NCBI GenBank assembly: GCA_027064425.1
Contig: JAMOPO010000057.1
Coordinates: 124,001-188,000, forward strand
DNA length: 64,000 nucleotides
Reading direction: 5' to 3'
Origin: Methanobacteriota archaeon
Lineage (GTDB): Archaea; JAADCQ01; Methanopyri; Methanopyrales; Methanopyraceae
How positions within the stretch are numbered: position 1 is the stretch's first letter; each line of letters starts with the position of its first letter. Shown in pieces: positions 6,237-59,109 of this stretch. The notes under the pieces were generated by a model that was not told the DNA's origin, made no database searches, and saw only the letters and a list, made by a program, of their open reading frames with translations. A program made the position numbers and the translations under genes.

Positions 6237-6254
6237 GCGGGCCTCCTGCCCCGG

Positions 6255-7349: not shown

Positions 7350-7399
7350 CCCAGTCCCGCCGGATCGCCGGAGTAAAAGTCTCCTCGGGGTGCCCCACG

Positions 7400-8767
7400 T
7401 TGCTGGAGGGACTGAGGGCGACGCTGAGGAGGGTCTCGGACGCGCGGTTGGAGTCCCTGCTGGGCAAGGACGAGCTGGACTTCCAGGTGTTCGTGAAGGG
7501 CGCCATCGGCGCACTGCGCGACGGGATCCGGCGGCTTGCGGGCCTGAACCCGGAGGCGGCGGCCGGATACGCCGCCGCGAGGCGCGGGTACCGGACGGAG
7601 ACGCTGAGGGAGCTCACCCGGGCCGTGGAAGGCAGGGCGGAGCACCTGGCGGTTCGCGCCCTGCAGCTGTACAAGGCGGCCTGCTGGGACGTTCTCGAGG
7701 ATTCGGAGGAGATCATGGGGGTGGGCGTCGCCGTCGACCTCCGAGAGGGTCGGGTGGTCGTCCGCAAGAGCCCCAAGGAGCGGGAGTACGAGCCGATCTC
7801 GAAGGCTTACGACCTGCCGGACGACCCGCACGAGCTGGTGACGGAGCTCGTCGACCGGTACGACCTTGATTTTATCTACGTGGCGGACCTGGACGCGATT
7901 CTGGACGGGGAGCCCGGTTCGGACCTGGAGTTCCTGGAGTCCGTCGAGGTACCCGCGTTCGTCGACACGGGGCGCTGCGACGTGGAGCTACCCTCCAACG
8001 CCCGGCGCATCCTGCCTACGGAGTGCTACGACGATGCCGAGGACTACCTCGAGGATCTGGAAACGCTTGAGGACGCCGTCGCGGGCCTGGACCTCGACGG
8101 GTCCAAGGTGATGGGCCCGTGGGAGCGGGTGGGGGAGTTCCTGGACGACGTCGTGGAGCTCGTTTGCAGCCGGCGGCCGGGAGCCGTGGTGGTGGACGTC
8201 GGGGCCGTCGGATCGGGCGAGGGGCCGCCGTTCGAGGCCGGCGCGTCCGTGGGCATGTACTGCGACGCGATCATAGGTGGAGGCGTCGGGTGCCTGAAGC
8301 ACCTGGAGCTGGCGCTCGGGACCCCGGGCGTGGTGGGAGTTATCGTCGGCACGCTCCTGTTCGAGGGGGTGAATCCCATGAAGCTGGAGGAGGCCAAGAA
8401 GCGTGGGAGGGAGCTTCGGGTGCACCACATGGGGCTGGAGGAGGAGTACCTGGAGCTCATCAAGGAGGGCAAGAAGACGGTGGAGGGGCGGGTGAAGGAC
8501 GACAAGCGCGTGAGGATCAAGCCCGGTGATAAGATCCTGTTCAACCGGCGGCTCCTGGTCGAGGTCGTGGACGTGCGGGAGTACGACTCGTTCGAGGAGA
8601 TGCTCCGGGAGGAGGGTCTCGAGAACGTCCTCCCGAACGTGGACTCCATCGAGGAGGGCGTGGAGGTGTACCGGAAGTTCTACTCCAGCGGTAAGGAGAA
8701 GATGTTCGGGGTCCTCGCCATCGAGATCCGGCCGCTGATGGACCTGTTCGAGGACATCTGCGACTGA
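7400..8767 (+). CDS. Three-part protein: helical N-domain, HisA-like barrel, ASCH domain
   Basis: A 455-residue open frame with three regions. Residues 1-105 are helical and unrecognised. Residues about 106-330 resemble the HisA-related barrel (COG1411 type): VAVDLREGRVV, then YVADLDAI, then GVGCLKHLELAL and the terminal barrel strand. Residues about 335-455 form an ASCH/PUA-like RNA-binding domain beginning HHMGLEEEYLELIKEGKK. The TTG start at 7400 follows GGGGTG. Two in-frame internal ATGs also have good ribosome sites: 7715 (GGAGGA upstream), exactly at the barrel start, and 8378 (GGGGGTGA upstream), near the ASCH start. The function of the fusion is unknown. Confidence 0.72.
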   Translation: MLEGLRATLRRVSDARLESLLGKDELDFQVFVKGAIGALRDGIRRLAGLNPEAAAGYAAARRGYRTETLRELTRAVEGRAEHLAVRALQLYKAACWDVLEDSEEIMGVGVAVDLREGRVVVRKSPKEREYEPISKAYDLPDDPHELVTELVDRYDLDFIYVADLDAILDGEPGSDLEFLESVEVPAFVDTGRCDVELPSNARRILPTECYDDAEDYLEDLETLEDAVAGLDLDGSKVMGPWERVGEFLDDVVELVCSRRPGAVVVDVGAVGSGEGPPFEAGASVGMYCDAIIGGGVGCLKHLELALGTPGVVGVIVGTLLFEGVNPMKLEEAKKRGRELRVHHMGLEEEYLELIKEGKKTVEGRVKDDKRVRIKPGDKILFNRRLLVEVVDVREYDSFEEMLREEGLENVLPNVDSIEEGVEVYRKFYSSGKEKMFGVLAIEIRPLMDLFEDICD

Positions 8768-9568
8768 TCACTCCAGGATGGGACCCTCCGGGCTCGGGAT
8801 GAACCCGATGCGCTCCAGGAACTTGTCGTCGTACACCAGCTCAATCTCGGTGCCGCCCAGGTAGGGACCCACCCGGTGCAGGACGCCGGGGGCGTCGGTA
8901 TCCTCGTCGAGCACCACCTCGTTCTCCAGGAGCCCCCACCGCTCGATCCGGATGACGCGGCGACCGAAACCGGCCTTGTTCAGCGCTCGCTGGAGTCGTT
9001 TCCGAGTGATTCCGGAGACGATCATCCGGTCGTACGGGTCGGCGGCCATCTCGAGCAGGTACTCTACTTGCTCGTCCGTCAGCTTGGCCTCGATCTCCCC
9101 CTTCTCCTCGTCCACCTCCACGATCTCTACCTCGAGTGGTAAGTTCTCGACGAAGCCGAAACTGCGGCCGATATCCCGAACCGAGGCCTTCTCACCGTCG
9201 AGCAGCTGCTCCCTCAGTCGGTACAGCGGGATCAGCGCGTCGACCACCTTAGGACCCACCACCCCGATGTCCACGTAGACGCCGTACCCGACCTTGTAGA
9301 GGTCGATGATCTTTCCATAAATCACGTCGCCGGGCACCAGGTCGAACAGCGACCTGACGGTGTCGAACTCCTCGATCAACCGCTCCGCCGCCTCCTCCGC
9401 GTCGGGTCCGCGGAGCTTCAGGGTCGCCCACGAGCGGAAGTTCTTCTTCACCTCCTCGATCCTCACCTCGAGGTCGCTCAGTAGCTGCCTGACCTGAGTC
9501 AGCAGCGACTCCTCGGCCCCGCCGTCCCGGTACAGCTTTTCCAGTATCGTAACGTGGACCACCGGCAC
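8768..9568 (-). CDS. S1-like domain archaeal protein (resembles DUF2110)
   Basis: A 266-residue archaeal protein. Around residues 75-125 it has an S1/OB-like strand pattern, GDVIYGKIIDLYKVGYGVYVDIG, given here only in part as the family cue, suggesting RNA binding. The rest matches what I recall of DUF2110. GTG 9568 follows GGTGAG. It is the last gene of a minus-strand run (PurL, deacetylase-like, TFE, HD protein, this gene), and its stop directly abuts the stop of the convergent HisA-like gene. A general link to RNA or transcription is inference. Confidence 0.6.
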   Translation of the reverse strand: MPVVHVTILEKLYRDGGAEESLLTQVRQLLSDLEVRIEEVKKNFRSWATLKLRGPDAEEAAERLIEEFDTVRSLFDLVPGDVIYGKIIDLYKVGYGVYVDIGVVGPKVVDALIPLYRLREQLLDGEKASVRDIGRSFGFVENLPLEVEIVEVDEEKGEIEAKLTDEQVEYLLEMAADPYDRMIVSGITRKRLQRALNKAGFGRRVIRIERWGLLENEVVLDEDTDAPGVLHRVGPYLGGTEIELVYDDKFLERIGFIPSPEGPILE

Positions 9569-36157: not shown

Positions 36158-37252
36158 TCACCCCCTGTACGGCCGGTTGTTCGGCACGCCGACCGTGTTC
36201 CCCACTCCCACGATGATGACGGTCGAGCCCTCGGGGGCCTCCTCCGCCAGGCGAAGCGCGCGCTCGGCGGCCTCCTCCACGGCGTCCATCACGGGCTTCG
36301 GCATCGGGGTGACGGCCTCGGTCGCGCTCATCTTGATCGCGACCGCGTCGAGGTCGATGCCCTCGTCCGCGGCGATCTGCTCGATTTTGTAGCTCTCGTG
36401 CCCCGGGTCGCCCATCGCGACGCCCACGCCCTCGCTCACCTTTCCGGTCCGCTCACCCTCCAGTTTTAGGGCGGCGTCGATGGTGATGATCTTGGAAACA
36501 TCCCCGTACTCCTTCACCAGGCGCTTAACCGTGCGACCCAGCCTGCCCAGGTTGCCGCCCGGCCCGTCCGCCTTGACGATGACCAGGCGGCGCCCCTTGT
36601 ACTCCCGCTCGGCCACGACCGTGTCCTTCTCGATCTCGCGCGTCTCGGCGTCGCCGATCAGCCGGGCGGCGACCATCGGGCCGACGCTGTCACCGATGGG
36701 GACGCAGTCCAGGAAGGCCTTCGCGCCCTCGTAGTTGCTCTTGATGTACTGCTTGAGCTCGGGCAGGATCATCGTCAGCAGGAGCAGCAGCTGGAGATTG
36801 TTCGTCTTCTTAGCCGAGAGGAGGAGGTGGCGCAGGTACTGGGTCAGGGAGTGAATGGTGAACACGCAGGTGAGCGCCATGCTCATGTTGTCCACGTCGA
36901 CGCCCTCACGCTTCCCAGTCAGCACGCGGGCGTAGGAGCGGAACTTGCTCTCACTGCGCTCAATGAGGTTCTCCAGTCGCTCGATGATCCCGTGCGGATC
37001 GAGCTGAACGGGCTGCACGATGAACAGGTTCGCGGCCCGGCGGACGATGGTCTCGGCATCCTCCCGCTCGCACCTCGCCCGGGAGACGACCATCCTCCGG
37101 ACCTTCTCATCGATCTCGGAGATCTCGTCGATCTCGCTCTCGATCCGTCGGAGGAGGAGCCAGCGGTAGTAAAACTGGGCCAGGAGCCAGAACAGCACCA
37201 GGGACAGGACCAGGTACAGCAGGTTCTCCAGGAACGAGGAGTCCGCGGTCAC
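36158..37252 (-). CDS. DUF1512-family archaeal membrane protein
   Basis: A 364-residue protein with one N-terminal membrane helix (LLYLVLSLVLFWLLAQFYY) and a long cytosolic part, matching what I recall of DUF1512. Conserved-looking segments are KADGPGGNLGRLG, IDAALKLEGE and the C-terminal GVGNTVGVPNNRPYRG. Function unknown. GTG 37252 overlaps the SPOUT methyltransferase stop as GTGA, and its own stop forms part of the nmd3 ribosome site. Confidence 0.8.
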   Translation of the reverse strand: MTADSSFLENLLYLVLSLVLFWLLAQFYYRWLLLRRIESEIDEISEIDEKVRRMVVSRARCEREDAETIVRRAANLFIVQPVQLDPHGIIERLENLIERSESKFRSYARVLTGKREGVDVDNMSMALTCVFTIHSLTQYLRHLLLSAKKTNNLQLLLLLTMILPELKQYIKSNYEGAKAFLDCVPIGDSVGPMVAARLIGDAETREIEKDTVVAEREYKGRRLVIVKADGPGGNLGRLGRTVKRLVKEYGDVSKIITIDAALKLEGERTGKVSEGVGVAMGDPGHESYKIEQIAADEGIDLDAVAIKMSATEAVTPMPKPVMDAVEEAAERALRLAEEAPEGSTVIIVGVGNTVGVPNNRPYRG

Positions 37253-37974
37253 GAGCCTCCCCCCGACCCGTCCCCGGACCTGGAGTAACCCTCGACCCTC
37301 CTTCTCGCTTTCTCCAGGATCCAGAGCAGGGCCTTCACCTCCTTGTCGGTGCAGCGGGCCCGGGCCAGGAACCGACGGAACGTCGTCCGGACGTTGTCAC
37401 GACGCACCTCATCGATCCCGAGGGCGCGCATGAGGCGGTCGAGCGAGTCCACGAGCACCTCCTTCTCCCGCTTGGTCGCGGGGCGACCGTAGCGCTCCGG
37501 CACGTGCTCCTCCCTGGTGAGCTCGTAGAGGGTGACGGCCACGGAGTGGGATAGGTTCATTGAGCGGTACTCCTCGCTGGTCGGGATGAACATGGTCGCG
37601 TCGCACAGCTTGATCTCCCAGGTCCGGAGTCCCCGATCCTCGGGCCCGAAAACCAGGGCGATCTTCTCGCAGTCGGAGAACTGCTCTCGCACCTCCCAGG
37701 GCATCATCGGGTCCCGGGCGGGGGTTGAGCCAAGCACGGCGGTGGTAGCCACGGCCGCCTCCACGTCCTCGATGGCCTCCTCCAGGGTGTTCACTATCCT
37801 TGCCTCCCTCAGCACGTCCAGCGCGTGCATCGCTCGGGCCACCGCGACCTCACCAAGCTCGGCCCGAGGTCGGACGAGGAAAAGTTCCTTCACACCGAAG
37901 TTCTTCATCGCCCGGGCAACGTGACCGACGTTCCCGTCGTACTTGGGCTCGACGAGCACCACTCGGATCTCCAA
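37249..37974 (-). CDS. SPOUT-family RNA methyltransferase (TrmJ/TrmH-like)
   Basis: A 241-residue 2'-O-ribose methyltransferase. SPOUT motifs: N-terminal VLVEPKYDGNVGHVARAMKNFG, central VFGPEDRGL and the knot segment FIPTSEEYRSMNLSHSVAV. The C-terminal helical extension is as in archaeal TrmJ, which modifies tRNA position 32. TTG 37974 follows GGAGGT. It heads the nine-gene translation run and is divergent from the ABC-GNAT gene with 26 nt between starts. Confidence 0.9.
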   Translation of the reverse strand: MEIRVVLVEPKYDGNVGHVARAMKNFGVKELFLVRPRAELGEVAVARAMHALDVLREARIVNTLEEAIEDVEAAVATTAVLGSTPARDPMMPWEVREQFSDCEKIALVFGPEDRGLRTWEIKLCDATMFIPTSEEYRSMNLSHSVAVTLYELTREEHVPERYGRPATKREKEVLVDSLDRLMRALGIDEVRRDNVRTTFRRFLARARCTDKEVKALLWILEKARRRVEGYSRSGDGSGGGS

Positions 37975-38000
37975 CGCCCACTACCTCCGGGGTGCCGTCC

Positions 38001-39935
38001 TTGATCGTCGGCACGGTCCGGAACGACTTCAAACGCCGGAGATTAAACTACTGGGAGGGACGGGTCGTCCTAGAGACGGAGGACGGCGACGAGGTCACGC
38101 TTCACCTCCCCGGCACGATCGCGGGGTGGCTGACCCGGGAGACGAAGGTCCGCATCAAGGGCGCGGAGGACGAGGAGATCGACGTGTTCGAGGACGACGT
38201 GACCGTGGAGCGGGAGTACGAGGGCGAGTGGGTGCAGGTCTGGCCACCCTTCGAGACCGAGGTGACGCTGGAGCGCACGGACGTGATGGGCGAGGAGATC
38301 TACCGGTACGAGCTCCGGGCCCGGGAGGCCATCTACAAGGAGGACTTTGAGTACATCGTCGGGCTCGAGCAGTACCACTACGCCTCGGAGAAGGACGTGG
38401 TGGCGATCTGGGCGTGCCGGGAGTGCGGGAAGGTCATCCGGGCCAACGTTCGACCTGAGGAGTGCTCCAAGTGCGGCTCCACGCAGGTCGAGCTCCGGGC
38501 GATCAGAGGCTCGCTACCCGCCTCGCGGTTCATGGTCTTGGAGCTGACCAACGGCGAGGAGTACGAGCCGGACATCGTGGCGTACGTCCGCGTGGACCCG
38601 CCCATCCCGAAGCTGAACCGGCGGCTGGACGGGACCGTGGAGCGGAACATCCGGGAGCGGGTGTTCTCCGAGGACTGGTTCCACCCCACCTTCGAGCCGG
38701 AGCGCGGTAAGACGGTGGAGGAGATCCTGCACCGGTGCGACACGCGCGTAGCGCGGATCGCCCGGGTCGTCGTGCACCCGGAGTACCGCGCCGACGGCAT
38801 CGGGCGCACGGCGGTGCAGGCGGCGGTCAAGTGGGTCAAGGAGGCGCGCATCCCGGAGATGAAGGGGAAGAAGCACCTGATCGAGGTCATCGCGCAGATG
38901 GCCCGCTACCACCCGATCTTCGAGAGCGTGGGCTTCGTGTACCTGTGGGACACGGGCTCGGGCCGCCCCTACCTGGTGAAGCCGCTCACGAGGAAGGCGA
39001 AGCGCATGGTCTCCAAGTTCCTGAGGGAGGACCAGCAGGCGCGCAGGCACGGTGGCCGGCTGTACCGCTCCCGACTGAAGAAGCTCGAGGTGGAGCCGCT
39101 GGAGGGACCGATCCGGGTCAAGGGCCTGCACAAGATGTTCACGGCCGAGCTGGACGTGAAGGGCTTGCCCCAGGAGATCGTGGAGCTGCTGGAGGCGTTC
39201 GGCGTCCTGCACCGGCGCATTCAGCAGTACGCACTGCAGGACGTGAACCTGGAGGTGGAACCGGGCGAGCTGGTGGTGGTCGTAGGCCCCAGCGGGGCGG
39301 GCAAGACGACGCTCGTGCGCATGATCATGGGGGCGCACGAGGAGTTCCTGGAGTCCATCCGGAAGGAGCTGCTGCGGAAGCTGTCCTCCCCGATCGTGTC
39401 GCGGGCGCTCTACTCGATGGGGACCACGCCGGAGGAGGTCGTGGAGGAGCTCGTCGAGGAGATGTACCGGCCGGACAAGGGCAAGGTCGAGCTACCGGAC
39501 AACACCAAGCTGGAGGCGATGATCCCGGGCGAGGTGGAGCCGGACATCGACCCGGGCGTCACCATCATCGAGGACCTGGTGTCCGTCACGGGCGACGTGC
39601 ACCTGGCCGTGGAGATCCTCAACCGCTCGGGCATCTCGGACGCGGTCCTGTACCGCAGCCCGTACGAGCGCCTGTCGCCGGGTCAGAAGGAGCGGGTAAG
39701 GCTGGCGCGGATGATCGCGGAGGGCGCGAACCTGCTGGTCATCGACGAGTTCTGTTCGCACCTGGACCCGAAGACGTCGATGAGGGTGGCGCGCAGCTTC
39801 TCCGAGATGTGCCGCGAGCTGGGGATCACGGCGATCATCATCACGCATCGGTCCGAGGTGATCGACGCGCTCGCACCGGACAAGATCGTGTACGTGGGTT
39901 ACGGGCTGGTGGGGGTGGAGGAGCGGGAGGAGTGA
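38001..39935 (+). CDS. ABC-type ATPase fused to a GNAT-like domain and zinc ribbon (COG2401 type)
   Basis: A 644-residue fusion. A beta-rich N-terminal region (about 1-140) is followed by a zinc ribbon CRECGKV...CSKCG (about 140-165), then a GNAT-like region with VVVHPEYRADGIGRTAV (about 250-320). The C-terminal ABC ATPase has Walker A GPSGAGKT, signature LSPGQKERVRLARM and Walker B LLVIDEFCSHLD. No membrane partner is present, so it is not a transporter. The role is unknown; related proteins occur across archaea. TTG 38001 follows GGGGTG; a GTG nine bases upstream is also in frame. Confidence 0.85.
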   Translation: MIVGTVRNDFKRRRLNYWEGRVVLETEDGDEVTLHLPGTIAGWLTRETKVRIKGAEDEEIDVFEDDVTVEREYEGEWVQVWPPFETEVTLERTDVMGEEIYRYELRAREAIYKEDFEYIVGLEQYHYASEKDVVAIWACRECGKVIRANVRPEECSKCGSTQVELRAIRGSLPASRFMVLELTNGEEYEPDIVAYVRVDPPIPKLNRRLDGTVERNIRERVFSEDWFHPTFEPERGKTVEEILHRCDTRVARIARVVVHPEYRADGIGRTAVQAAVKWVKEARIPEMKGKKHLIEVIAQMARYHPIFESVGFVYLWDTGSGRPYLVKPLTRKAKRMVSKFLREDQQARRHGGRLYRSRLKKLEVEPLEGPIRVKGLHKMFTAELDVKGLPQEIVELLEAFGVLHRRIQQYALQDVNLEVEPGELVVVVGPSGAGKTTLVRMIMGAHEEFLESIRKELLRKLSSPIVSRALYSMGTTPEEVVEELVEEMYRPDKGKVELPDNTKLEAMIPGEVEPDIDPGVTIIEDLVSVTGDVHLAVEILNRSGISDAVLYRSPYERLSPGQKERVRLARMIAEGANLLVIDEFCSHLDPKTSMRVARSFSEMCRELGITAIIITHRSEVIDALAPDKIVYVGYGLVGVEEREE

Positions 39936-39945
39936 TCACTCCTCC
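39926..39945. repeat. Perfect 20-bp palindrome across two convergent stop codons
   Basis: Arms ggaggagtga and tcactcctcc are exact reverse complements with no spacer. The centre falls between the TGA of the ABC-GNAT gene and that of the UspA gene. Both proteins end in Glu-Glu, so coding pressure partly explains it. Confidence 0.6.
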
Positions 39946-40367
39946 TCCGGCGGGACAACGATCACCGGGCACGGGGCCCGCGTCACCACGCCCTTCGCCG
40001 TGCTGCCCAGGATGAGCCCCTTGACGCCGGAGAGGCCCCGGGTCCCGATCACGATCAGGTCCACGTCCCGCTCCTTCGCCTCGTCCACGATGCCCTGCAC
40101 CACGGAGGGAGCCTCCACGACGACCGGCTCCGCCTCGACGCCCTCCTCCTCGGCCATTTCGCAGACCTCGTTCACCAGCTTCTCCGCCTCCTCCACGATC
40201 TCCTCGGGGAGCGTGTAGGAGGGCTTGGTGCCGAGCGGACTCCAGAGTGGAATCACGTGCACGGCGATGACGTCGGCGTCGAACTGCTTCGCGATCTCGA
40301 TGCCAACCTTGGCCGCCTGCTTCGAGTTCTCGGAGCCGTCGGTCGGGATCATGATGGTTTTGAACAC
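39936..40367 (-). CDS. UspA-type universal stress protein
   Basis: A 143-residue single-domain protein. The start TIMIPTDGSENS, the VIAVHVIPLW strand and the ATP-binding GTRGLSGVKGLILGSTAKGVV (G-2x-G-9x-G-S/T pattern) are clear. GTG 40367 follows GGGGGG. It is divergent from the Cys-rich gene, sharing a symmetric promoter element exactly midway, and its stop abuts the ABC-GNAT stop within a perfect palindrome. Confidence 0.92.
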   Translation of the reverse strand: MFKTIMIPTDGSENSKQAAKVGIEIAKQFDADVIAVHVIPLWSPLGTKPSYTLPEEIVEEAEKLVNEVCEMAEEEGVEAEPVVVEAPSVVQGIVDEAKERDVDLIVIGTRGLSGVKGLILGSTAKGVVTRAPCPVIVVPPEEE

Positions 40368-40397
40368 AACCAGCCCCCCTCGAGACCGAGGTTCCAC

Positions 40398-40410
40398 CGG
40401 TATAATACCG
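40398..40410. promoter_or_regulatory. Symmetric TATA element for divergent uspA and Cys-rich genes
   Basis: A 13-base element with arms CGGTAT and ATACCG around a central A, containing TATAATA. Its centre is 37 bases from each of the two divergent start codons, fitting one TATA box that can be read in both directions. Confidence 0.6.
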
Positions 40411-40440
40411 TGTCGATCGGGGGCGCGCCGGGTGCACCCC

Positions 40441-40815
40441 ATGGCGGAGAGGCACTTCAAGCGCCTGGACGAGGAGGGCGTGCGCGAGCCCCTCGGACCG
40501 CGTGAGGACTGCGAGTATTACCCGTGTCACTTCGAGGGTCAGGACTGCACCTGGTGCTTCTGTCCCCTGTACCCGTGCCTGGACGAGAGTCTGGGCGGGT
40601 GGGTGAGAACTAGGGACGGGTCCGAGGTGTGGGGGTGCCAGGACTGCGACCTCGTGCACCGGCCGGAGGTGGCGGAGCTGCTGCTGCGCGAGCTGCTCCA
40701 GCTGGGCGACGGGAGCATCCTGGAGGGGGTTAAGGTGCTGGAAGAGGATGAGGAGGTGAAGCGGCGCCTGCTCGAGCGCATCAAAGCGAAACGCGGAAGC
40801 CGGCGGCGGCCCTGA
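40441..40815 (+). CDS. Cysteine-rich small-domain protein
   Basis: A 124-residue protein with nine Cys in its first 75 residues: CEYYPCHFEGQDCTWCFCPLYPC, then GCQDCD. This matches the small Cys-rich domain (COG2158 type) of methanogens, which I recall but whose function is unknown; metal or cluster binding is likely. The C-terminal part is helical and charged. ATG 40441 follows GGGTG. The 3' end overlaps the convergent ASCH gene by 35 nt. Confidence 0.8.
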   Translation: MAERHFKRLDEEGVREPLGPREDCEYYPCHFEGQDCTWCFCPLYPCLDESLGGWVRTRDGSEVWGCQDCDLVHRPEVAELLLRELLQLGDGSILEGVKVLEEDEEVKRRLLERIKAKRGSRRRP

Positions 40816-41230
40816 CGGCGTCGAGCAGCTCGTAGTCGATGCGGAACAGCGGGTTCGGGTGGAACTCGCGGTTCAGCTCGCGCCGGACGATGTCCTTCAG
40901 GTCCTGGAGCGGAACGGGGTTCGGGTACCGGACGGGGTCGGCGAGCTCGATCAAGTAGGCGTGCTCCTTCCCGTCGAGGTACTCGCGAAGCTCCTCCGGG
41001 GAAGTCTTGGCGGCCGCGGCGATCTCGTCCAGGTTGTCGTCGACCCTGACCCGTCTGATCCCGTTGATGCGTGCCTCGCCGAGGACGGCCTTGGTCGGGC
41101 TCGACGCGTACACGACGCACGTGTCCTCGTTCACGATGGTCGTGGGTAACCAGCGGCGGACCTCGACGGTCTTCACGCCGCTGAGGATCATGTCCGCGTA
41201 CCGGGGCTTGACGGACATCCACACCGGCAA
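40781..41230 (-). CDS. ASCH/PUA-like RNA-binding protein
   Basis: A 149-residue ASCH-superfamily protein, suspected to bind RNA or modified bases. The motif SVKPRYADMILSGVKTVEVRR is the classical N-terminal strand-helix with the G-x-K-x-x-E core. Start choices in frame are TTG 41230, GTG 41224 and ATG 41218; the first two keep the opening strand (VWMSVK) whole. It lies downstream of an AT-rich patch (41257-41280) that may hold its promoter. Confidence 0.8.
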   Translation of the reverse strand: MPVWMSVKPRYADMILSGVKTVEVRRWLPTTIVNEDTCVVYASSPTKAVLGEARINGIRRVRVDDNLDEIAAAAKTSPEELREYLDGKEHAYLIELADPVRYPNPVPLQDLKDIVRRELNREFHPNPLFRIDYELLDAVRAAAGFRVSL

Positions 41231-51268: not shown

Positions 51269-51661
51269 ATGGAGTTCGAGGAGTACCTGGAGGAGTGGTT
51301 CAAGGGTGAGACCACCGAGGTGGGCATCTACATGGCGATGGCCATCGTCGCACGAGAGCAGGGGTACCCGGACGTCGCCGAGCTGCTGGAGCAGGTGGCC
51401 ATGGACGAGGCGCGGCACGCGGCCGCCGCAGCGCTGATCGCCGGCAAGGTCGAGAACAGCCTGGACGGGCTCATCGAGAAGCTCGAGGAGATGATTGAAG
51501 GGGAGAAGCAGGCCTACGAGACGCGGATGGACGAGGCCGACCACCACTCGGACGAGCTGGACGACGAGGTGATCACCCTGCTGAAGGCCACCGCCTACGA
51601 CGAGAAGCACCACAGGAAGATGCTTAAGGCGGCGCTGAAGCGGCTCAAGGAGGAGGCCTAA
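51269..51661 (+). CDS. Rubrerythrin-like ferritin-superfamily diiron protein
   Basis: A 130-residue four-helix protein. Diiron ligands are suggested by the first-helix ETTEVGIYMAMA, EQVAMDEARHAAAA and C-terminal YDEKHHRKML. There is no rubredoxin domain. The family commonly reduces hydrogen peroxide or stores iron, so an oxidative-stress role is likely. ATG 51269. It is preceded by a candidate redox-regulator box shared with the cooS operon. Confidence 0.82.
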   Translation: MEFEEYLEEWFKGETTEVGIYMAMAIVAREQGYPDVAELLEQVAMDEARHAAAAALIAGKVENSLDGLIEKLEEMIEGEKQAYETRMDEADHHSDELDDEVITLLKATAYDEKHHRKMLKAALKRLKEEA

Positions 51662-51806: not shown

Positions 51807-52571
51807 GTGAGCCGGTTGCGCTTCGCCGTCCTCTACTCTCACCCGTTCGGCGAGAGAATGTTGGCCAACCTGCTGAACGAGCCGGGCCACTGTCGGGCCT
51901 GCGGGCCCGCGTGCGATGGATGCAAGTACGGTGCGTACTCGCTCGCCGACTCCCTGGTTACCGCGGAGGAGCTACCCAAGCCGGAGGAGCTACCCCCGAT
52001 GATCGAGGATCCAGGGGACTACCTCCCAAGACTACCGCCCGTCGACGTGCTGGTGGCGGTCGGACTGCACCCCGACCTCCTGATCGCGCTACCCGAGTCG
52101 TACGACGTCCGCTCCCTGATCGTTCCGGTCGAGGAGCCCGACTGGATGGACCCGTGGACGGAGAGGAAGCTTCGCGAAGCGTGCGAGGAGAGCAACGTGG
52201 AGCTCACGGTGGCGAGACCGGGGTGCGACCTGGAGCCACCCGGCCCCGTGACCGAGAGGTTCTGCAGGGCGGGCCTGATCGGCAGGCCTAAGCTGTCCCT
52301 GAGGGTGGAGGACGGCGTCGTAGTTGAGGCCCGGGTGGTGAGGTCGGCGCCGTGCGGCTGCACGTGGTTCGTGGCCAAGCGGCTGGTGGGCGTGGACGCG
52401 GAGCCGGGGGAGGTGAAGGCCGCCGTGTCCGAGGCGCACCACTCCTACCCGTGCACGGCCTCGATGAAGGTCGACGAGCGCGTCGGGGACACCCTGCTCC
52501 ACGCGGCGGGCTGGCTGCACGTGAGGGCCGCCCTTCGGGCGCTGGAGGAGGCGGTAGGGGGCGGCGAGTGA
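51807..52571 (+). CDS. DUF166-family archaeal protein
   Basis: A 254-residue protein of the DUF166 family, sometimes labelled thymidylate-synthase-related without proof. An N-terminal Cys cluster CRACGPACDGCKYG and later RSAPCGCTWFVAKRL are typical; cluster or metal binding is likely. The HHSYPCTASMKVD end segment is also conserved-looking. GTG 51807; TTG 51816 would start at the first strand. It stands between the rubrerythrin-like and CODH genes. Confidence 0.82.
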   Translation: MSRLRFAVLYSHPFGERMLANLLNEPGHCRACGPACDGCKYGAYSLADSLVTAEELPKPEELPPMIEDPGDYLPRLPPVDVLVAVGLHPDLLIALPESYDVRSLIVPVEEPDWMDPWTERKLREACEESNVELTVARPGCDLEPPGPVTERFCRAGLIGRPKLSLRVEDGVVVEARVVRSAPCGCTWFVAKRLVGVDAEPGEVKAAVSEAHHSYPCTASMKVDERVGDTLLHAAGWLHVRAALRALEEAVGGGE

Positions 52572-52579
52572 AGACGTCC

Positions 52580-53005
52580 TCAGTCGCCGAGCACTCGCTC
52601 CAGCACCTCCCGGAACAGCCTCCACCTCCTCCCCCGGAGCCCGTACTCCCGGCGCACGTCGGCCTCGATGTCCTTGGCCTCGTAGCCGGCCGGGCGGTAC
52701 GTGGAGACCAAATCGCCGTCGCGGCGCCCCGGCTTCAGCCTGATCTCGCCGCGACGTAGGAGGTCGTGGATGGCCTCCTTCACGTCCACGGAGAAGTACG
52801 GCGCCCTGAGCAGCATGCAGTACCCGTACTCGGTCCCCGTCAGCGGCCGGCCCGTCTCGCGCTCGAACTCCTCGTCGATCGAGTAGATCACGCGGAACAG
52901 GGATCGCTGGTCGATACCGGGCCGGAGCGCCACGAGGTACTTCACCAGCGGTCTCAGGTCCGCGTCCGTCGGCTCGACCGTGTGACATCTGCACCGGGCG
53001 TGCAA
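52580..53005 (-). CDS. SocA/Panacea-like small protein
   Basis: A 141-residue protein of uncertain function. The pattern SLFRVIYSIDEEFERETGRPLTG...LRAPYFSVDVKEAIHDLLRRGEI resembles the SocA-like (Panacea) fold found in antitoxins and phage proteins. TTG 53005 follows GGGGTG at eight bases; ATG 53077 would add a Cys-rich 24-residue leader covering the promoter. It is divergent from the cooS operon, and the TTCG-N8-CGAA box lies between its TATA and start. No toxin neighbour is seen. Confidence 0.55.
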   Translation of the reverse strand: MHARCRCHTVEPTDADLRPLVKYLVALRPGIDQRSLFRVIYSIDEEFERETGRPLTGTEYGYCMLLRAPYFSVDVKEAIHDLLRRGEIRLKPGRRDGDLVSTYRPAGYEAKDIEADVRREYGLRGRRWRLFREVLERVLGD

Positions 53006-53037
53006 GGTCGCGCCACCCCATCGGCCGAGATCTCCCG

Positions 53038-53053
53038 TTCGATGAAATTCGAA
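53038..53053 (+). promoter_or_regulatory. TTCG-N8-CGAA box before the cooS operon
   Basis: Reads TTCG, ATGAAATT, CGAA, followed four bases later by the TATA element. It would be in position to compete with TFB at the cooS promoter. The last gene of the operon encodes an MsvR-like ArsR-V4R regulator, a candidate ligand of this box. Confidence 0.6.
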
Positions 53054-53057
53054 AACG

Positions 53058-53063
53058 TTATAA
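53058..53063. promoter_or_regulatory. Symmetric TATA element TTATAA of the cooS promoter
   Basis: The self-complementary TTATAA lies 61 bases before the cooS ATG and 53 bases before the divergent SocA-like start. It is the only A/T-only hexamer in the interval and can serve both directions. Confidence 0.55.
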
Positions 53064-53124
53064 TGGTACGCGGGCATGGTCGAGACTGGTCGAACGTTCG
53101 GTTGGATGCGAACGGGGGATGGGC

Positions 53125-55026
53125 ATGTCGGGAGAGTGCCCGTACGCGGACGAGGCCGTCCGTGAGCTGGTCGAGCACGCCAAGAAGCTCAACGAGGAGA
53201 TGCCGGAGATCGAGACCCCGCACATCCGGTGGCCCGTTCAGTTCCCGAAGTGCCCGTACGGTAAGCAGGGCGTGTGGTGCAACATCTGCGCGAACGGGCC
53301 CTGCAGGATCACCGAGAAGACGCCGCGCGGCGTGTGCGGAGCCACGGCGGACGTGATCGTGGCCCGTAACTTCCTCCGGCACGTGGCCGCGGGGGCCGCG
53401 TGCTACGTTCACTGCCTGGAGAACGCCGCCCGGGCCCTGAAGTCCGTGGCGGATGAGGAGTCACCGTACGAGATCGCGGACGAGCGCGCCCTGCGGCACG
53501 CAGCCGAGGTCTACGGGCTGGACGCCTCGGGCAAGCCGGAGGACGTGGCGGAGGAGATCGCGGACTTCATCCTAGAGGACATTTACCGGCCGCGGCACGA
53601 GGAGTCGGAGGTGTTCAAGGCGGTCGTGCCGGACTGGCGAGTCGAGATGTACGAGGAGCTCGGTCTCGTCCCGGGCGGCGCGAAGTCCGAGATTCACGAC
53701 GCGCTGGTCAAGACGAGCACGAACCTGAACTCCGACCCGGAGGACATGCTCCTGCACGTGCTCCGGCTGGGCCTGATCACCGGACCCGTCTCCCTGTTCG
53801 GCGTGGAGACAATCAACGACATCCTGTTCGGGAGTCCGAGGATCACGGAGACGGAGGGCGGCCCGGGGATCCTGGACCCGGACTACGTGAACATTATGGT
53901 CACCGGGCACCAGATGCCGCTGCTCAAGCACCTCATGGACGCGGCCGAGCGGCTGGAGGACGAGGCCAAGAGGGCCGGGGCCAAGGGCATCCGGATCATC
54001 GGGGCGACGTGCGTCGGCGACGACTTCGAGGCCCGCGCGGAGCACCTGCCGGACACGTACGCGGGGTTCGCGGGCAACAACTTCGCGACCGAGGCGCTGG
54101 CCGCGACGGGTCTCGTGGACGCGATCGTCAGCGAGTTCAACTGCACGTTCCCGGGCCTGAAGTTCTACGGTGAGAACGTCGAGCTGATCGCCGTGGACGA
54201 CGTGGCCAAGGTGTGGGGAGCGGAGCTGATTCAGTGGGACCCGGAGCGCGCTGAGGAGGTGGCCGAGGAGGCCGTCAGAAGGGCCATCGAGGCGTTCAAG
54301 GAGCGCCGCTCGAAGCATGAGGATCGGATCATGCGGCCCGAGCACAGGCACGAGAACGTGGTGGGCTTCGGCTACTTCTCGATCGAGGACGCGGTCGGCT
54401 GGGAGAAGGTGCTCGAGCTGATCGAGGAGGGCACCATCCGAGGCGTCTGCGCGATCGTGGGCTGCACGAACCTGGCCAGCGGCGGTCACAACGTGCCGGC
54501 CGCCACCCTGGCGAAGGAGATGATCAAGCGGGACATCCTCGTCCTCGGAGCCGGGTGCGTGAACGGAGCGCTGGCCAACGCCGGCCTGTTCAACCCCGAG
54601 GCGGCCGAGCTCGCCGGCGAGAACCTCCGGAAGGTCTGCGAGGAGCTCGGCATCCCACCGGTGCTCCACTACGGGCCGTGCCTGGCGATCGGTAAGATCG
54701 AGCACCTGCTCTTCGAGATCGCCGAGATCCTGCGGGAGAAGACCGGCGAGGAGGTCGATATCCCGGACATCCCGGCCGTCGCGAGCGCGCCGCAGTGGCT
54801 CGAGGAGCAGGCGCTGGCGGACGCGTCCTCGGCCCTAGCGCTGGGCATCACGCTGCACGTGAGCCCGGTGCCGCCCGTGACCGGCAGCAAGGTGGTCACC
54901 AAGACGCTGCTCGAGGACCTGCCGGAGCTGACCGGCGGCGAGCTGATCATCGAGACGGACATGGAGAAGGCCGCCGAGATCCTGGCCGAGAAGATCGAAG
55001 AGAAGCGGAAGCGCTTGGGTATCTGA
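53125..55026 (+). CDS. cooS: Divergent Ni-Fe carbon monoxide dehydrogenase catalytic subunit (CooS)
   Basis: A 633-residue homologue of monofunctional CODH. The C-cluster ligands are all present: H262, C296, C340, C447, C478, C519. The B-cluster Cys are C52, C55, C60 and C71. However, of the two D-cluster Cys expected, only C43 remains; the second position is W51. The acid-base His in the AAH motif is Cys (AAC at 91-93), and the conserved Lys near the C-terminus is Gln (Q562, in PQWLEEQAL). These alignments use recalled CODH-II numbering. The fold and metal site look intact, but electron exit and proton handling should differ. ATG 53125 follows GGGGGAT; ATG 53119 is possible. First gene of a six-gene run. 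Confidence 0.9.
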   Translation: MSGECPYADEAVRELVEHAKKLNEEMPEIETPHIRWPVQFPKCPYGKQGVWCNICANGPCRITEKTPRGVCGATADVIVARNFLRHVAAGAACYVHCLENAARALKSVADEESPYEIADERALRHAAEVYGLDASGKPEDVAEEIADFILEDIYRPRHEESEVFKAVVPDWRVEMYEELGLVPGGAKSEIHDALVKTSTNLNSDPEDMLLHVLRLGLITGPVSLFGVETINDILFGSPRITETEGGPGILDPDYVNIMVTGHQMPLLKHLMDAAERLEDEAKRAGAKGIRIIGATCVGDDFEARAEHLPDTYAGFAGNNFATEALAATGLVDAIVSEFNCTFPGLKFYGENVELIAVDDVAKVWGAELIQWDPERAEEVAEEAVRRAIEAFKERRSKHEDRIMRPEHRHENVVGFGYFSIEDAVGWEKVLELIEEGTIRGVCAIVGCTNLASGGHNVPAATLAKEMIKRDILVLGAGCVNGALANAGLFNPEAAELAGENLRKVCEELGIPPVLHYGPCLAIGKIEHLLFEIAEILREKTGEEVDIPDIPAVASAPQWLEEQALADASSALALGITLHVSPVPPVTGSKVVTKTLLEDLPELTGGELIIETDMEKAAEILAEKIEEKRKRLGI

Positions 55027-55059
55027 TTCTCACCAATCTTTTCCGGGCAGGTGACTCTC

Positions 55060-56160
55060 ATGAGAGTGGAAACGCTCCGGGTCGCGACGGGTGAGCCCGG
55101 AGAGCTGAGGGTGGTCGCGGAGATCACGGAGGGGAAGGTCGTGAACGCCGAGGTGTGCTCCACGACCACGCCGCTCTCCTGGGAGACGCTGGTCCTCGAG
55201 AAGCCCGTCGAGTTCGCCGTGGTCGCCGCCGAGCGGGTGTGCCGCGGCTGCGACGCCAGCGCGGGGCTGGCCGTGGCGGAGGCGGCCGAGGACGCCCTGG
55301 GCGTGGACGTGCCGGACGACGCGAGGAGGGCCCGAGAGCTCCTGAACATGGCCAACGTGGTCAAGTCGCACGCCAGGACGCTGGCCGTGGCCGACCTGGG
55401 AGTGGAGGAGCCGGCCTACGAGCTCGTCCGCGCCGCCAAGGAGATCGTCAGGATGGTGGGCGGGAAGCCCCAGCACCCACCCGCCGTAACCGTGGGCGGC
55501 CTGGCGATCGAGCGGATCCCCGTGGAGCGGGTTGAGAGCGTGGCCAAGGACGCGGTGGAGACCGCCGAGGAGGTGCTGGATGACGTGGAGTCGGCCGTAG
55601 ACGACCTGCGAGAAGACCTCGAGGTGGAGCCGCGCGAGCGGCCGACCGAGCTCAGCGTCTCGGACACGTACAGGGGCGACGTGGACCGGGGCGCGATCGA
55701 GGTGCTGACGCCGGAGGAGTTCTACCGGATGAGGACCACCCGGAGGATCGCCACCAACCTCGTCGCCCAGTATGAGGGCAAGCCCGCCCTGGTCGGACCG
55801 GCCGCGAGGCGGGGCGGGGCGGAGCATCCGGTGGAGCACCACGTCGCCAGGGCCGAGGAGATCGTGAGCATGCTGGACGGGATCGCGGACGCCGCCTCAG
55901 GGCTGGACGGGTCCGGCGAGTACCGGACGGACGACGTGGAGGCGGGATCCGGCGAAGGGGCGGCCGCGGTGGAGGCCCCGGAGGGCGTCCTCGTCGTCCG
56001 GCTGCGGCTCAGGAACGGGCGCGTGGACGAGGCCGAGATGATCACTCCTTCCAACTTCAAGGCGGCCCTCGCGGGCGACCTCCTGCCCGGACTGACGGTC
56101 GAGGAGGTCGAGACGGTCCTGCGCTCGCTCGGCCTCTCCGGCAGGTGCCTCACGCACTGA
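55060..56160 (+). CDS. Degenerate [NiFe]-hydrogenase large subunit (FrhA/MvhA-like)
   Basis: A 366-residue homologue of the hydrogenase large subunit, shorter than the usual 400-470. The L1 motif RxCGxC appears as RVCRGC (C61, C64), but the His that normally follows is missing. The segment ARRARELLNMANVVKSHA and PALVGPAARR are clear family matches. The C-terminal DPCxxCxxH motif reads GLSGRCLTH: the first Cys is Ser360, the second is C363, and the chain ends at that His without the usual cleaved extension. A nickel site is therefore doubtful; it may serve as a scaffold. ATG 55060 follows AGGTGA, 33 bases after cooS. Confidence 0.78.
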   Translation: MRVETLRVATGEPGELRVVAEITEGKVVNAEVCSTTTPLSWETLVLEKPVEFAVVAAERVCRGCDASAGLAVAEAAEDALGVDVPDDARRARELLNMANVVKSHARTLAVADLGVEEPAYELVRAAKEIVRMVGGKPQHPPAVTVGGLAIERIPVERVESVAKDAVETAEEVLDDVESAVDDLREDLEVEPRERPTELSVSDTYRGDVDRGAIEVLTPEEFYRMRTTRRIATNLVAQYEGKPALVGPAARRGGAEHPVEHHVARAEEIVSMLDGIADAASGLDGSGEYRTDDVEAGSGEGAAAVEAPEGVLVVRLRLRNGRVDEAEMITPSNFKAALAGDLLPGLTVEEVETVLRSLGLSGRCLTH

Positions 56161-56172
56161 GGGGGGCTCGAG

Positions 56173-56889
56173 ATGAGGGTAGCCCTGCTCTCCCTCATGT
56201 CCTGCGGATCCTGCGCGGAGAACCTCGAGATCGTGTGCCAGAGTGAGGGCCACGAGCTGGTATGGTCGAGTCTGAGGGACGACGGTGAAGTGCCGGACGT
56301 GGACGTCCTGTTCGTGGACGGGGCCGTGGACTTCGCCGACGCTGACGCGCGGGAGCGGCTCGAGCGGGCGGTCTCGTCGGCGGACGTGGTCGTGTCGCTG
56401 GGATCCTGCGCCGCCACCGGTGGCTTTGAGCGGCACGCGATCGGCATGCGAGAGCCCGCCAGGTACCACTTCACGGTGTTCCCGGCCGCCAAGTTCGCCG
56501 ACACGGACTACGCCATCATCGGCTGCCCTCCCACGGAGGACGCCATCGCCTCCTTCCTGGAGGCGCTGGAGGAGGGCGACGACGACAGGCTCGAGCCGTA
56601 CCGGGTCCTGTCGGGGGACTTCCACGGGCTGGACCCGAACCTGCCGTCCCCCGTCCGTGGCCCGGAGGCGACGGTGGAGGACGTGCTGCTGACCTCCAAC
56701 AAGGATCTCTGCCTGGGCTGCGACCTGGACGTCGTCGAGCGAGAGCTATTCTGCACGGGATGCGGAGCGTGCGCCGCCTCGTGCCCCGCCTGGGCCATAG
56801 AGATCGACGAGAAGCCCGAGATCCGCGAGGACAGGTGCATCAGGTGCGGAACGTGCTTCGCGACCTGCCCGAGGTCGTTCCGAGCTTGA
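56173..56889 (+). CDS. FrhG-like hydrogenase small subunit with two ferredoxin clusters
   Basis: A 238-residue electron-transfer subunit. The N-terminal small-subunit domain keeps the proximal cluster ligands C11 and C14 (SCGSC), C79 (LGSCAATGG) and C118 (IGCPPT). The C-terminal part has a CLGC pair and two [4Fe-4S] motifs, CTGCGACAASCP and CIRCGTCFATCP. This matches FrhG of F420-reducing hydrogenase. It could wire the CooS protein to the FrhB-like flavin subunit. ATG 56173 follows GGGGGG, 12 bases after the large-subunit gene. Confidence 0.88.
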   Translation: MRVALLSLMSCGSCAENLEIVCQSEGHELVWSSLRDDGEVPDVDVLFVDGAVDFADADARERLERAVSSADVVVSLGSCAATGGFERHAIGMREPARYHFTVFPAAKFADTDYAIIGCPPTEDAIASFLEALEEGDDDRLEPYRVLSGDFHGLDPNLPSPVRGPEATVEDVLLTSNKDLCLGCDLDVVERELFCTGCGACAASCPAWAIEIDEKPEIREDRCIRCGTCFATCPRSFRA

Positions 56890-56908
56890 GCCACCGGTGG
56901 TGCGCGCG

Positions 56909-57811
56909 ATGCGCGGGTTGCTGAGAAAGATCCTCGGGAAGAAAGACCGGCGGGATGGTAAGATGAAGCTCGACCCCGAGCTCGTGGGTGAGTACCGCGG
57001 CGCGTACCTGGCTCGAGCCACCGAGGAGCGCTTCCGAGAGGCCGGCCAGGACGGCGGCACCGTCACCGCGCTCCTGGCGCACGCGCTCGAGGAGGGTTAC
57101 ATCGAGGCCGCGGTCGTGTCGACGACGGGCTCCGACCCGTGGAGGCCGAGGCCGACCGTGGCCACGAGCGTGGAGGAGCTGCTCGAGGCGGCCGGGTCGA
57201 AGTACTCCATCTCGCCGAACCTGAGCGCGCTGGAGACGGCCGTCGGGTCCCACGACTCGGTGGCCGTGGTCGGCACACCGTGCCAGGTCAGCGCCGTCAG
57301 GAAGCTGGAGTCGCACGCGTACGGCGTGGCCGACGTCGCGGAGCGCGTGAAGCTGCTCATCGGCCTCTTCTGCTCCGAGAACCTGACCTACAAGGGTCTG
57401 ACCGAGTTACTAGAGAAGGAGATCGAGGCCGACCTCTCCAGCGTGGAGCGCATGGACATCACGGCGGGTAAGTTCACCGTCGTCACCTCCGACGGCGAGG
57501 AGCGATCGGTTTCCGTCTCAGAGCTGCGCAGGTACGCCAACGAGGCGTGCGGCTTCTGCACTGATTTAACGGCAGAGGACGCGGACGTGAGCGTTGGGTC
57601 CACGGGCGCTCCAGACGGTTGGAACGTCGTTCTGGTGCGGACCGGCCGGGGCGAGAGGATCCTCCAGTCCGCTGTGGACGCCGAGGTGCTGGAGGTAAGG
57701 GACGTGGACGAGGGGGACCCGGCGACCCTCGAGCGGCTGGCGAGCGACAAGAGGGAGCGCGCCGAGAGCGCCAGGTGCGCGGTGTGGCGACCCTACCCGA
57801 CCTCCCCCTAG
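56909..57811 (+). CDS. FrhB-like F420-binding flavoprotein subunit
   Basis: A 300-residue member of the coenzyme F420 hydrogenase/dehydrogenase beta family, which carries FAD and a [4Fe-4S] cluster and exchanges hydride with F420. Motifs: GQDGGTVTALLAHALEEG, VVGTPCQVSAVRKL, GLFCSENLTYKGL and CGFCTDLTAEDADVSVGS. A basic N-terminal extension of about 25 residues precedes the usual start. ATG 56909 lies six bases after GGTGGTG; GTG 56897 and 56900 are alternatives. Its presence argues that the complex uses F420. Confidence 0.88.
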   Translation: MRGLLRKILGKKDRRDGKMKLDPELVGEYRGAYLARATEERFREAGQDGGTVTALLAHALEEGYIEAAVVSTTGSDPWRPRPTVATSVEELLEAAGSKYSISPNLSALETAVGSHDSVAVVGTPCQVSAVRKLESHAYGVADVAERVKLLIGLFCSENLTYKGLTELLEKEIEADLSSVERMDITAGKFTVVTSDGEERSVSVSELRRYANEACGFCTDLTAEDADVSVGSTGAPDGWNVVLVRTGRGERILQSAVDAEVLEVRDVDEGDPATLERLASDKRERAESARCAVWRPYPTSP

Positions 57812-57842: not shown

Positions 57843-58319
57843 GTGGAAATCGGTCCGAGGGAGTTCCTCCGAGCGTTCCTGTACTCCTACGTCGTAACGT
57901 CCGCGCAGCTGCTGGGTAGCAAGGCGCCGGCCCTGCGGCGGGCCGTGTGCAGGAACGCCGCCCGGGCCCTACTCCGGGAGCACCCGGAGCTGGAGGACCT
58001 CGAGCCCGTTGAGATGGTGAAGGCGGTGGCCGAGAGCCTGCTGGGGGCCAGCGTGAGCGTCGATGAGGACGCGTCCGGAGGAGTGGCTGTCAGGATCGAG
58101 GGATGCAGGATCTGCCCGAGGGACCTCATCGAGGAGTTCGTCCGTGATCATCCCGAGTTGAAGGACCCGATCTTCGGGTACAACGTCTGCGCGTTCACGA
58201 CCCTCATTGAGGAGGTCTTCCGAGCCCTGGGGGAGGAAGTTGAACTGAAGCACGAGCCCGTGGAGCGCGGCCGCTGTCGCGTGATCGTGAAGGCGAGCGG
58301 CAATAGGGCCGACGTTTGA
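57843..58319 (+). CDS. Stand-alone V4R-like protein
   Basis: A 158-residue protein. The C-terminal half (VRIEGCRICPRDLIEE, YNVCAFTTLIEEVFRALG, GRCRVIVKA) follows the Cys spacing of the V4R (4-vinyl reductase) sensor domain and parallels the C-terminal domain of the next gene. The N-terminal half is helical. It may bind a hydrophobic or redox ligand, or a metal. GTG 57843 follows GGGGGCGG, 31 bases after the FrhB-like gene. Confidence 0.65.
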   Translation: MEIGPREFLRAFLYSYVVTSAQLLGSKAPALRRAVCRNAARALLREHPELEDLEPVEMVKAVAESLLGASVSVDEDASGGVAVRIEGCRICPRDLIEEFVRDHPELKDPIFGYNVCAFTTLIEEVFRALGEEVELKHEPVERGRCRVIVKASGNRADV

Positions 58320-58368
58320 ACCTGAGGATGGCCCGCGGATGGTCGTCCCCTGCGCAGGGGAGGGCGAG

Positions 58369-59109
58369 ATGAGGCTGGCCATCGACGTTCCCAAGGATGT
58401 GGCCAGGGCGTTGGACAACGAGACCCGGCGCGAGATCCTTGAGCTGCTCAGAAAGCGCGGTCCCATGACCCTGTCCGACATAGCCCGGGAGCTGGGGCTG
58501 TCGAAATCGACGGTGCACCACCACCTGCGGGAGCTCCGGCGGGCCGGCCTGGTGGACGTGGTCAAGGAGGACCGGGGCGCGCCGCTGCCCAGGCGGTACT
58601 ACGGGCTGGTGCGCAGGCTGGTGAAGCTGTCGAGACCGAGGCTCGAGGACGCGGTGGAGTACGTCGCGCGAGCGCTGGACAGGGAGGACGACCCGTCCAC
58701 CTCCCTCCCGCTGGCCATAGCCGCCGCCTACCGTGCGGTGCTGGAGTCGCTGGGCGTTGACGCGAGGGAGGTCCTGTACGAGCTGGGCGAGGAGGTGGGT
58801 AAACGGCTGGCCAGGCGCTGTGAGGAGGGCTTGAAGGGGTTGGAACGGGTCCTATCCTCCGTGGCCGACTCGGTGCGGGTCCGCCGGGATGGGGAGCGCG
58901 TCACCGTCGAGGTGGAGGGGTGCCGGGAGTGCTCGGACCTTCCTTACGGCCCCGCCTGTCCGCTGGAGGCCGGCATCGTGGCTGGGTTCCTGACGGAGCT
59001 GACCGGCCGGCGCTACCGGGCTGAAGAGGTCGAGTGCTGTGGAGAGGGAGCGGAGAGGTGCGTGTTCGTGGCGGAGCCCGCTAGCGACGAAGAACGCCCC
59101 AAGCCCTAG
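58369..59109 (+). CDS. MsvR-like transcription regulator (ArsR helix-turn-helix plus V4R)
   Basis: A 246-residue regulator. The N-terminal winged helix (residues about 10-85; TLSDIARELGLSKSTVHHHL) is ArsR-type. The C-terminal V4R domain (about 170-235) has GCRECSDLPYGPACP, then ECCGEGAERCVF. This domain pair is that of MsvR, a redox-sensitive regulator of methanogens whose Cys change state under oxidation. ATG 58369 follows GGGGAGGG. Likely autoregulates the cooS operon through the TTCG-N8-CGAA box, an inference. Confidence 0.82.
   Translation: MRLAIDVPKDVARALDNETRREILELLRKRGPMTLSDIARELGLSKSTVHHHLRELRRAGLVDVVKEDRGAPLPRRYYGLVRRLVKLSRPRLEDAVEYVARALDREDDPSTSLPLAIAAAYRAVLESLGVDAREVLYELGEEVGKRLARRCEEGLKGLERVLSSVADSVRVRRDGERVTVEVEGCRECSDLPYGPACPLEAGIVAGFLTELTGRRYRAEEVECCGEGAERCVFVAEPASDEERPKP

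Follow-up and report, generated by a model that had tools for sequence, protein, structure and literature searches.

Four adjacent genes in a 64,000-nucleotide stretch of a Methanopyraceae genome (GenBank assembly GCA_027064425.1, contig JAMOPO010000057.1, positions 124,001 to 188,000; hereafter the window) encode a CooS-type carbon monoxide dehydrogenase (CODH) catalytic subunit followed by three relatives of the coenzyme F420-reducing hydrogenase subunits: a degenerate large subunit, here called FrhA′, an FrhG-like iron-sulfur (Fe-S) subunit, and an FrhB-like subunit for flavin adenine dinucleotide (FAD), F420 and Fe-S. We put at roughly even odds the reading that the four genes specify an F420-linked complex of a clade C CODH that acts in stress defence, and we consider a role in stress defence no less likely than one in growth on CO.

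The genes lie on one strand with intergenic gaps of 24, 12 and 7 nt (Table 1). CooS scores 723 bits against TIGR01702, above the cut-off of 478, and the FrhB-like protein passes the cut-off of NF006807, the F420-hydrogenase beta subfamily (316 bits, cut-off 269), and contains both FrhB_FdhB Pfam domains (PF04422 and PF04432). The FrhA-like and FrhG-like proteins do not come near the cut-offs of their equivalogs (TIGR03295, 125 bits where 392 are required; TIGR03294, 141 where 245 are required), and are therefore diverged paralogs. The reading frames and profile scores bear out a first-pass annotation of the same DNA, which had described CooS, a degenerate hydrogenase large subunit, FrhG and FrhB side by side and had taken the last to be the F420/FAD subunit; F420 binding is predicted.

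That annotation also considered the hydrogen-active part to be disabled, and the alignments agree. In Methanopyrus FrhA′ the N-terminal CxxC is intact (RVCRGC) and Ser stands in for the first of the two C-terminal Cys residues (DPCxxC to LSGRC), whereas in the Methanococcales FrhA′ the C-terminal pair is intact and the second N-terminal Cys is gone, such that each FrhA′ lacks one Cys ligand of the NiFe site but a different one in each lineage. The active-site Arg of the APRG motif is Glu in 17 of 17 FrhA′ (as APEG, GGEG or SPEG), and the C-terminal maturation tail is absent from every one, the sequences stopping at CLTH or CYYL; the real FrhA of the same genome has a selenocysteine and a maturation tail. 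In [NiFe] hydrogenases, loss of a thiolate ligand and change of this Arg abolish hydrogen chemistry. Because one Ni-binding Cys is lost, Arg is replaced by Glu and there is no tail, FrhA′ as judged from its residues cannot be a hydrogenase, and its hydrogen site has been dismantled in two lineages. The fold of an F420-hydrogenase alpha subunit is nonetheless predicted to be retained, as the best PDB matches of an AlphaFold model (mean pLDDT 74) are the alpha subunits 6qgr_A, 9r51_A and 3zfs_A. We rejected the possibility that FrhA′ is a selenocysteine-interrupted hydrogenase, although its stop codon at 56158–56160 is TGA: the LSGRCLTH motif is complete before the stop, orthologs terminate at the same place, and the true selenocysteine-containing FrhA is elsewhere (contig C3).

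The electron chain of the other two subunits is kept. FrhG has the four proximal-cluster Cys residues (in CGSC, GSCA and GCPP) and two ferredoxin-type clusters in all eight sequences aligned, and FrhB retains its Cys and QDGG motifs, being somewhat shorter in Methanococcales. With the FrhG Cys residues and the F420 domains of FrhB both conserved, the predicted link of the four-gene set to F420 is well supported. That the FrhG proximal cluster persists though its NiFe site is gone suggests that it faces another acceptor there, for which CooS would be the obvious candidate.

CooS itself has all six ligands of the C-cluster (H264, C298, C342, C449, C480 and C521) and keeps the B-cluster Cys residues. 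The acid-base His/Lys required of a competent CO dehydrogenase is replaced by Tyr/Gln (His93 to Tyr96 and Lys563 to Gln564), and both Y96 and Q564 are invariant across nine aligned clade C sequences. At the D-cluster C45 is kept, and the second Cys is altered in every Frh-linked CooS examined, to Trp in Methanopyrus or Tyr in Methanococcales; in 10 of 10 clade C relatives that were readable here and have no Frh genes alongside (from Archaeoglobaceae, Thermodesulfatator, Methanomicula and one euryarchaeote) this position is Cys. The coincidence of Frh linkage and D-cluster Cys loss in these alignments is striking. Membership of CooS in the HCP/CODH-V group was rejected because C298, the equivalent of ligand C295, is kept. 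HCP and CODH-V belong to the same superfamily and occur in stress-type contexts, and His93 is also Tyr in PDB 7b7q, which from its Glu295 we take to be C. hydrogenoformans CODH-V; in CODH-V position C295 is Glu and the Lys is retained, whereas this CooS keeps C295 and has Gln for Lys. By its residues CooS is a member of Ni-CODH clade C, group C-3, whose signature in the accessible text of Inoue 2019 (PMC6344411) is Tyr/Gln for His/Lys and a single Cys in the D-cluster region. The same text gives His/Lys as replaced in all of clade C, and cites work in which mutating them lowers CO oxidation in other CODHs.

The order CooS-FrhA′-FrhG-FrhB is kept in 17 species of heat-loving methanogens from two orders, all five Methanopyrus and 12 Methanococcales, with two of the latter copies cut off by a contig end. 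A search of the phylum around the window covered five genomes, and all five Methanopyrus carry the set in order, with a DUF166 gene on one side and the gene of a small V4R-like protein on the other; the co-occurrence within Methanopyrus that the first-pass annotation had set as a check is thus found, and extends to Methanococcales. In a scan of named genomes the closest CooS relatives beyond Methanopyrus are those of Methanocaldococcus and other Methanococci (56% identity), followed by Archaeoglobaceae and others. A strong CooS match is present in 12 of 36 genomes of the phylum containing Methanococcales (10 of 14 in one genus and two of two in another, the genus names being inferred from matches to named loci), and all 12 have the four-gene set. 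The shared order in 17 species is not due to chance. FrhA′ identity between Methanopyrus and Methanococcales is just 22–25%, so the gene order has outlived the sequence.

Phylogenies of FrhG and of FrhB unite the canonical Frh proteins of Methanopyrus with those of Methanococcales in a clade (98/98 for FrhG, 97/97 for FrhB) to which neither CooS-linked group belongs. Neither lineage, therefore, obtained its CooS-linked subunits from its own frh operon, and recruitment from a local frh operon is not supported. The CooS tree recovers clade C as a single group (100/100) in which the Frh-linked CooS proteins do not form one clade, Archaeoglobales standing beside Methanococcales with weak support (91/82), and the FrhB tree leaves the branching order of the two CooS-linked groups unresolved. 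For both reasons the trees do not establish that the link arose once: it may have done so and then been lost in Archaeoglobales, or it may have arisen twice.

The neighbouring genes point to oxidative or nitric oxide (NO) stress defence in several lineages, as judged from gene content. In most Methanocaldococcus with enough flanking sequence, genes for peroxiredoxin, rubredoxin, rubrerythrin, a DsrE-like protein, a flavodiiron protein of the F420H2-oxidase type, an FMN reductase and AfpA lie 5′ of CooS, and in several the genes for NikR, HCP and a cupin lie 3′ of the set. In Methanopyrus a rubrerythrin-domain gene precedes CooS and an MsvR-like gene comes after the set. The 158-residue protein encoded directly after Methanopyrus FrhB keeps four Cys residues in three aligned sequences and has a predicted V4R/TRAPP/H-NOX-like fold (a weak structural match), making it a possible sensor; two orthologs have no Pfam match at E 0.01. 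In Methanothermobacter an F420H2 oxidase operon is under the control of MsvR (PMC3729527), and O2 up-regulates bacterial clade C clusters of group C-1 that contain FNOR in C. ljungdahlii (Whitham 2015, as cited in the accessible text of PMC6344411). No gene for ACS or for an energy-converting hydrogenase was recognised next to the set in the neighbourhoods examined, and the CODH/ACS of this genome is on a different contig (C52). There a degenerate second CdhA-like protein (641 residues) is encoded in tandem with CdhA (36376–41073); it was detected in four of five Methanopyrus species.

DUF166 genes recur near clade C CooS in three archaeal orders (window 51807–52571; locus L070, 4532–5221; locus L135, 1201–1956), directly upstream of it in one Archaeoglobaceae genome and close by in several Methanocaldococcus. 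Between DUF166 and CooS in the window there is a minus-strand open reading frame (52580–53077) with 65–78% identity to at least three other Methanopyrus and no Pfam match, which may be either a genuine gene or a reading-frame artefact of high GC content. The clade C CooS genes of Archaeoglobales stand without Frh genes; cytochrome bd genes (CydAB) follow CooS in Archaeoglobales/Archaeoglobaceae, and an MsvR-like regulator is upstream on the divergent strand.

Table 1. Genes of the CooS-FrhA′GB region, with coordinates in the window
Feature	Coordinates	Strand	Remarks
Rubrerythrin-domain protein	51269..51661	+	Upstream of CooS; conserved in 5/5 Methanopyrus
DUF166 protein	51807..52571	+	Upstream of CooS
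CooS-type CODH catalytic subunit	53119..55026	+	635 aa; clade C, group C-3 by residues
FrhA′, degenerate [NiFe]-hydrogenase large-subunit fold	55051..56160	+	369 aa
FrhG-like Fe-S subunit	56173..56889	+	238 aa
FrhB-like FAD/F420/Fe-S subunit	56897..57811	+	304 aa
158-aa protein	57843..58319	+	Directly after FrhB; conserved in 5/5 Methanopyrus
MsvR-like HTH+V4R regulator	58339..59109	+	Score under MsvR equivalog cut-off

In the arrangement that we propose, FrhA′ would serve as a scaffold docking CooS on the proximal cluster of FrhG, so that CooS would stand where the hydrogen site was and act as the terminal redox centre. Electrons would pass in either direction between F420(H2), the FAD and Fe-S centres of FrhB, the Fe-S chain of FrhG, and CooS, with the D-cluster presumably bypassed or remodelled. 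The complex may help strict anaerobes to withstand oxidants, as an F420-based equivalent of the CooS-CooF-FNOR units that contain clade C CODHs in bacteria. Either of two reactions could accomplish this: (a) CO oxidation that supplies F420H2 while hydrogenases are poisoned, for which clade C has biochemical precedent, or (b) F420H2-driven reduction, at the C-cluster, of a small toxic compound (NO, hydroxylamine or a peroxide, for example), which fits because the acid-base pair is lost and neither a flavodiiron protein nor HCP was found in Methanopyrus. The lack of a flavodiiron protein weakens a general mechanism in which CO feeds F420H2 to an F420H2 oxidase: no flavodiiron protein was found in five of five Methanopyrus in a search in which Methanocaldococcus was positive, and the Methanopyrus matches to PF03063 (the prismane family) are this CooS and CdhA-type proteins, with no HCP among them.

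Several points weigh against a stress-defence complex. The correlation between Frh linkage and the D-cluster comes from just two lineages, and the physical interface between CooS and FrhA′/FrhG is argued from gene linkage. No biochemical, expression or interaction data on these proteins were found. Proximity to stress genes is not function; in Methanopyrus such neighbours are few and not contiguous with the set, and the NikR gene beside the Methanocaldococcus set, together with the intact C-cluster ligands, fits ordinary CO chemistry. The set is also missing from some genomes of the Methanocaldococcus group, and is therefore dispensable.

A first alternative is a CO:F420 oxidoreductase of energy or carbon metabolism, in which CO oxidation reduces F420 for methanogenesis. 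Electron transfer from CO to F420 is downhill, the C-cluster ligand set is complete and the F420 subunit is intact. Within clade C, to which it is assigned in PMC13056359, the CooS of T. kivui (with CooF1) oxidises CO, reaching 13.9 U/mg when methyl viologen is the acceptor; compared with AcsAB it is 15-fold slower with viologen and more than 200-fold slower with ferredoxin (PMC8683389). Because this weak oxidation occurs in a clade C enzyme, CO activity of the CooS described here is conceivable. One Methanococcales genome also has a separate set of CooF, CooS and a 534-residue ferredoxin-FrhB-like fusion (contig C1, 283000–297000, at 4934–9251 on the minus strand), in which the CooS retains both His/Lys and the D-cluster; this set is a precedent for pairing a CODH with F420. 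However, the same genome keeps the Frh-linked variant as well, which suggests that the variant does another job, and the replacement of His/Lys by Tyr/Gln, the lack of identified ACS or energy-converting hydrogenase genes alongside and the stress-gene surroundings all speak against a metabolic role, which we consider rather unlikely. The first-pass annotation had inferred an enzyme moving electrons between CO, or another small molecule, and F420; the F420 half holds, while CO as the substrate is not shown, given the lost acid-base residues and D-cluster Cys and the O2/NO-defence neighbours.

We hold equally doubtful the reading of the complex as a reductase that draws on F420H2 to remove a small toxic compound (NO, hydroxylamine or peroxide) and so resembles HCP or CODH-V in function; these related scaffolds carry out such chemistry (PMC13056359, PMC10502027). 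In its favour are the loss of the acid-base pair, the HCP gene adjoining the set in several Methanocaldococcus, and the failure to find flavodiiron proteins and HCP in the five Methanopyrus. The retention of C295 and the whole C-cluster set, versus Glu in CODH-V, makes a true NiFe cluster likelier than a hybrid one, however, and in Methanocaldococcus HCP already serves this role.

It is improbable that CooS and the trio are co-regulated without forming one complex, FrhA′GB being an F420:ferredoxin-type oxidoreductase and CooS a separate enzyme. The Archaeoglobales clade C CooS near cytochrome bd without Frh genes indicates that CooS can work alone, and FrhA′ may merely hold FrhG in shape; yet the four-gene order is fixed in 17 species, the D-cluster Cys is altered only in Frh-linked CooS, and the FrhG proximal cluster is kept though the NiFe site is gone. 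Very improbable is a redox or gas sensor in which CooS reports the CO/O2 state to V4R/MsvR-type regulators: clade C has been proposed as redox-regulatory (PMC13056359) and V4R/H-NOX-like and MsvR-like genes lie downstream, but sensing needs no full F420 electron chain and the regulators are not adjacent to the set in Methanocaldococcus.

Parts of this system have been described. Group C-3 in the accessible text of PMC6344411 shares complete C-cluster ligands, Tyr/Gln, one D-cluster Cys and archaeal hosts with the CooS described here, and Methanocaldococcus and Methanotorris are named; Methanopyrus, F420 (in the main text), a partner complex and hydrogenase degeneration are not mentioned there. 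FrhABG (PDB 4omf, 3zfs, 6qgr and 9r51) has the same three subunit types, fold and Fe-S/FAD/F420 chain, whereas this set is without one NiFe Cys, has Glu for Arg and no tail, gains CooS, and does not derive from the local frh operon. Bacterial CooS-CooF-FNOR units likewise combine a clade C CooS with an Fe-S protein and an FAD/nucleotide oxidoreductase, but here F420 and FrhB stand in place of NAD(P)H and FNOR, and FrhG with a hydrogenase scaffold in place of CooF; CooF and FNOR genes are absent from this set. A 2026 survey (PMC13240472) reports, in its accessible text, archaeal clade C CODHs beside F420-hydrogenase genes in an unclear role, almost certainly the same gene association, and that text is without the hydrogenase inactivation, the FrhA scaffold or the stress neighbourhood; F420 and Frh are absent from the main text of an eLife genomic-context study (PMC13056359). 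In the open-access literature we found no account of a dead hydrogenase scaffold, a D-cluster link or a defence-gene context for this four-gene unit, and searches on MJ0728/MK0717 and on CooS with FrhB and Methanocaldococcus yielded nothing relevant. The view in the first-pass annotation that no such complex had been described therefore stands for the complex, as far as found, but not for the CooS group (PMC6344411) or its proximity to F420-hydrogenase genes (PMC13240472), both of which are noted in the accessible texts.

What clade C CODHs do has yet to be settled (PMC13056359, PMC13240472), and the set described here names an electron partner for one of them, F420 through FrhGB. Both lineages have taken apart the hydrogen site of that partner but preserved its electron chain, and the unit lies near oxygen- and NO-defence genes. 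Tentatively, and with less confidence than in a stress-defence complex as such, the set may represent an old enzyme class, distinct from the canonical Frh paralogs of both lineages. In it a hydrogenase framework would have given up its own metal site and received a NiFe4S4 CODH-like enzyme as its active end, giving an F420-dependent complex that shields methanogens from oxidants, or does so by way of CO. Should the four proteins assemble together, they would offer a clear example of a hydrogenase module turned into an electron adapter for a different metalloenzyme.

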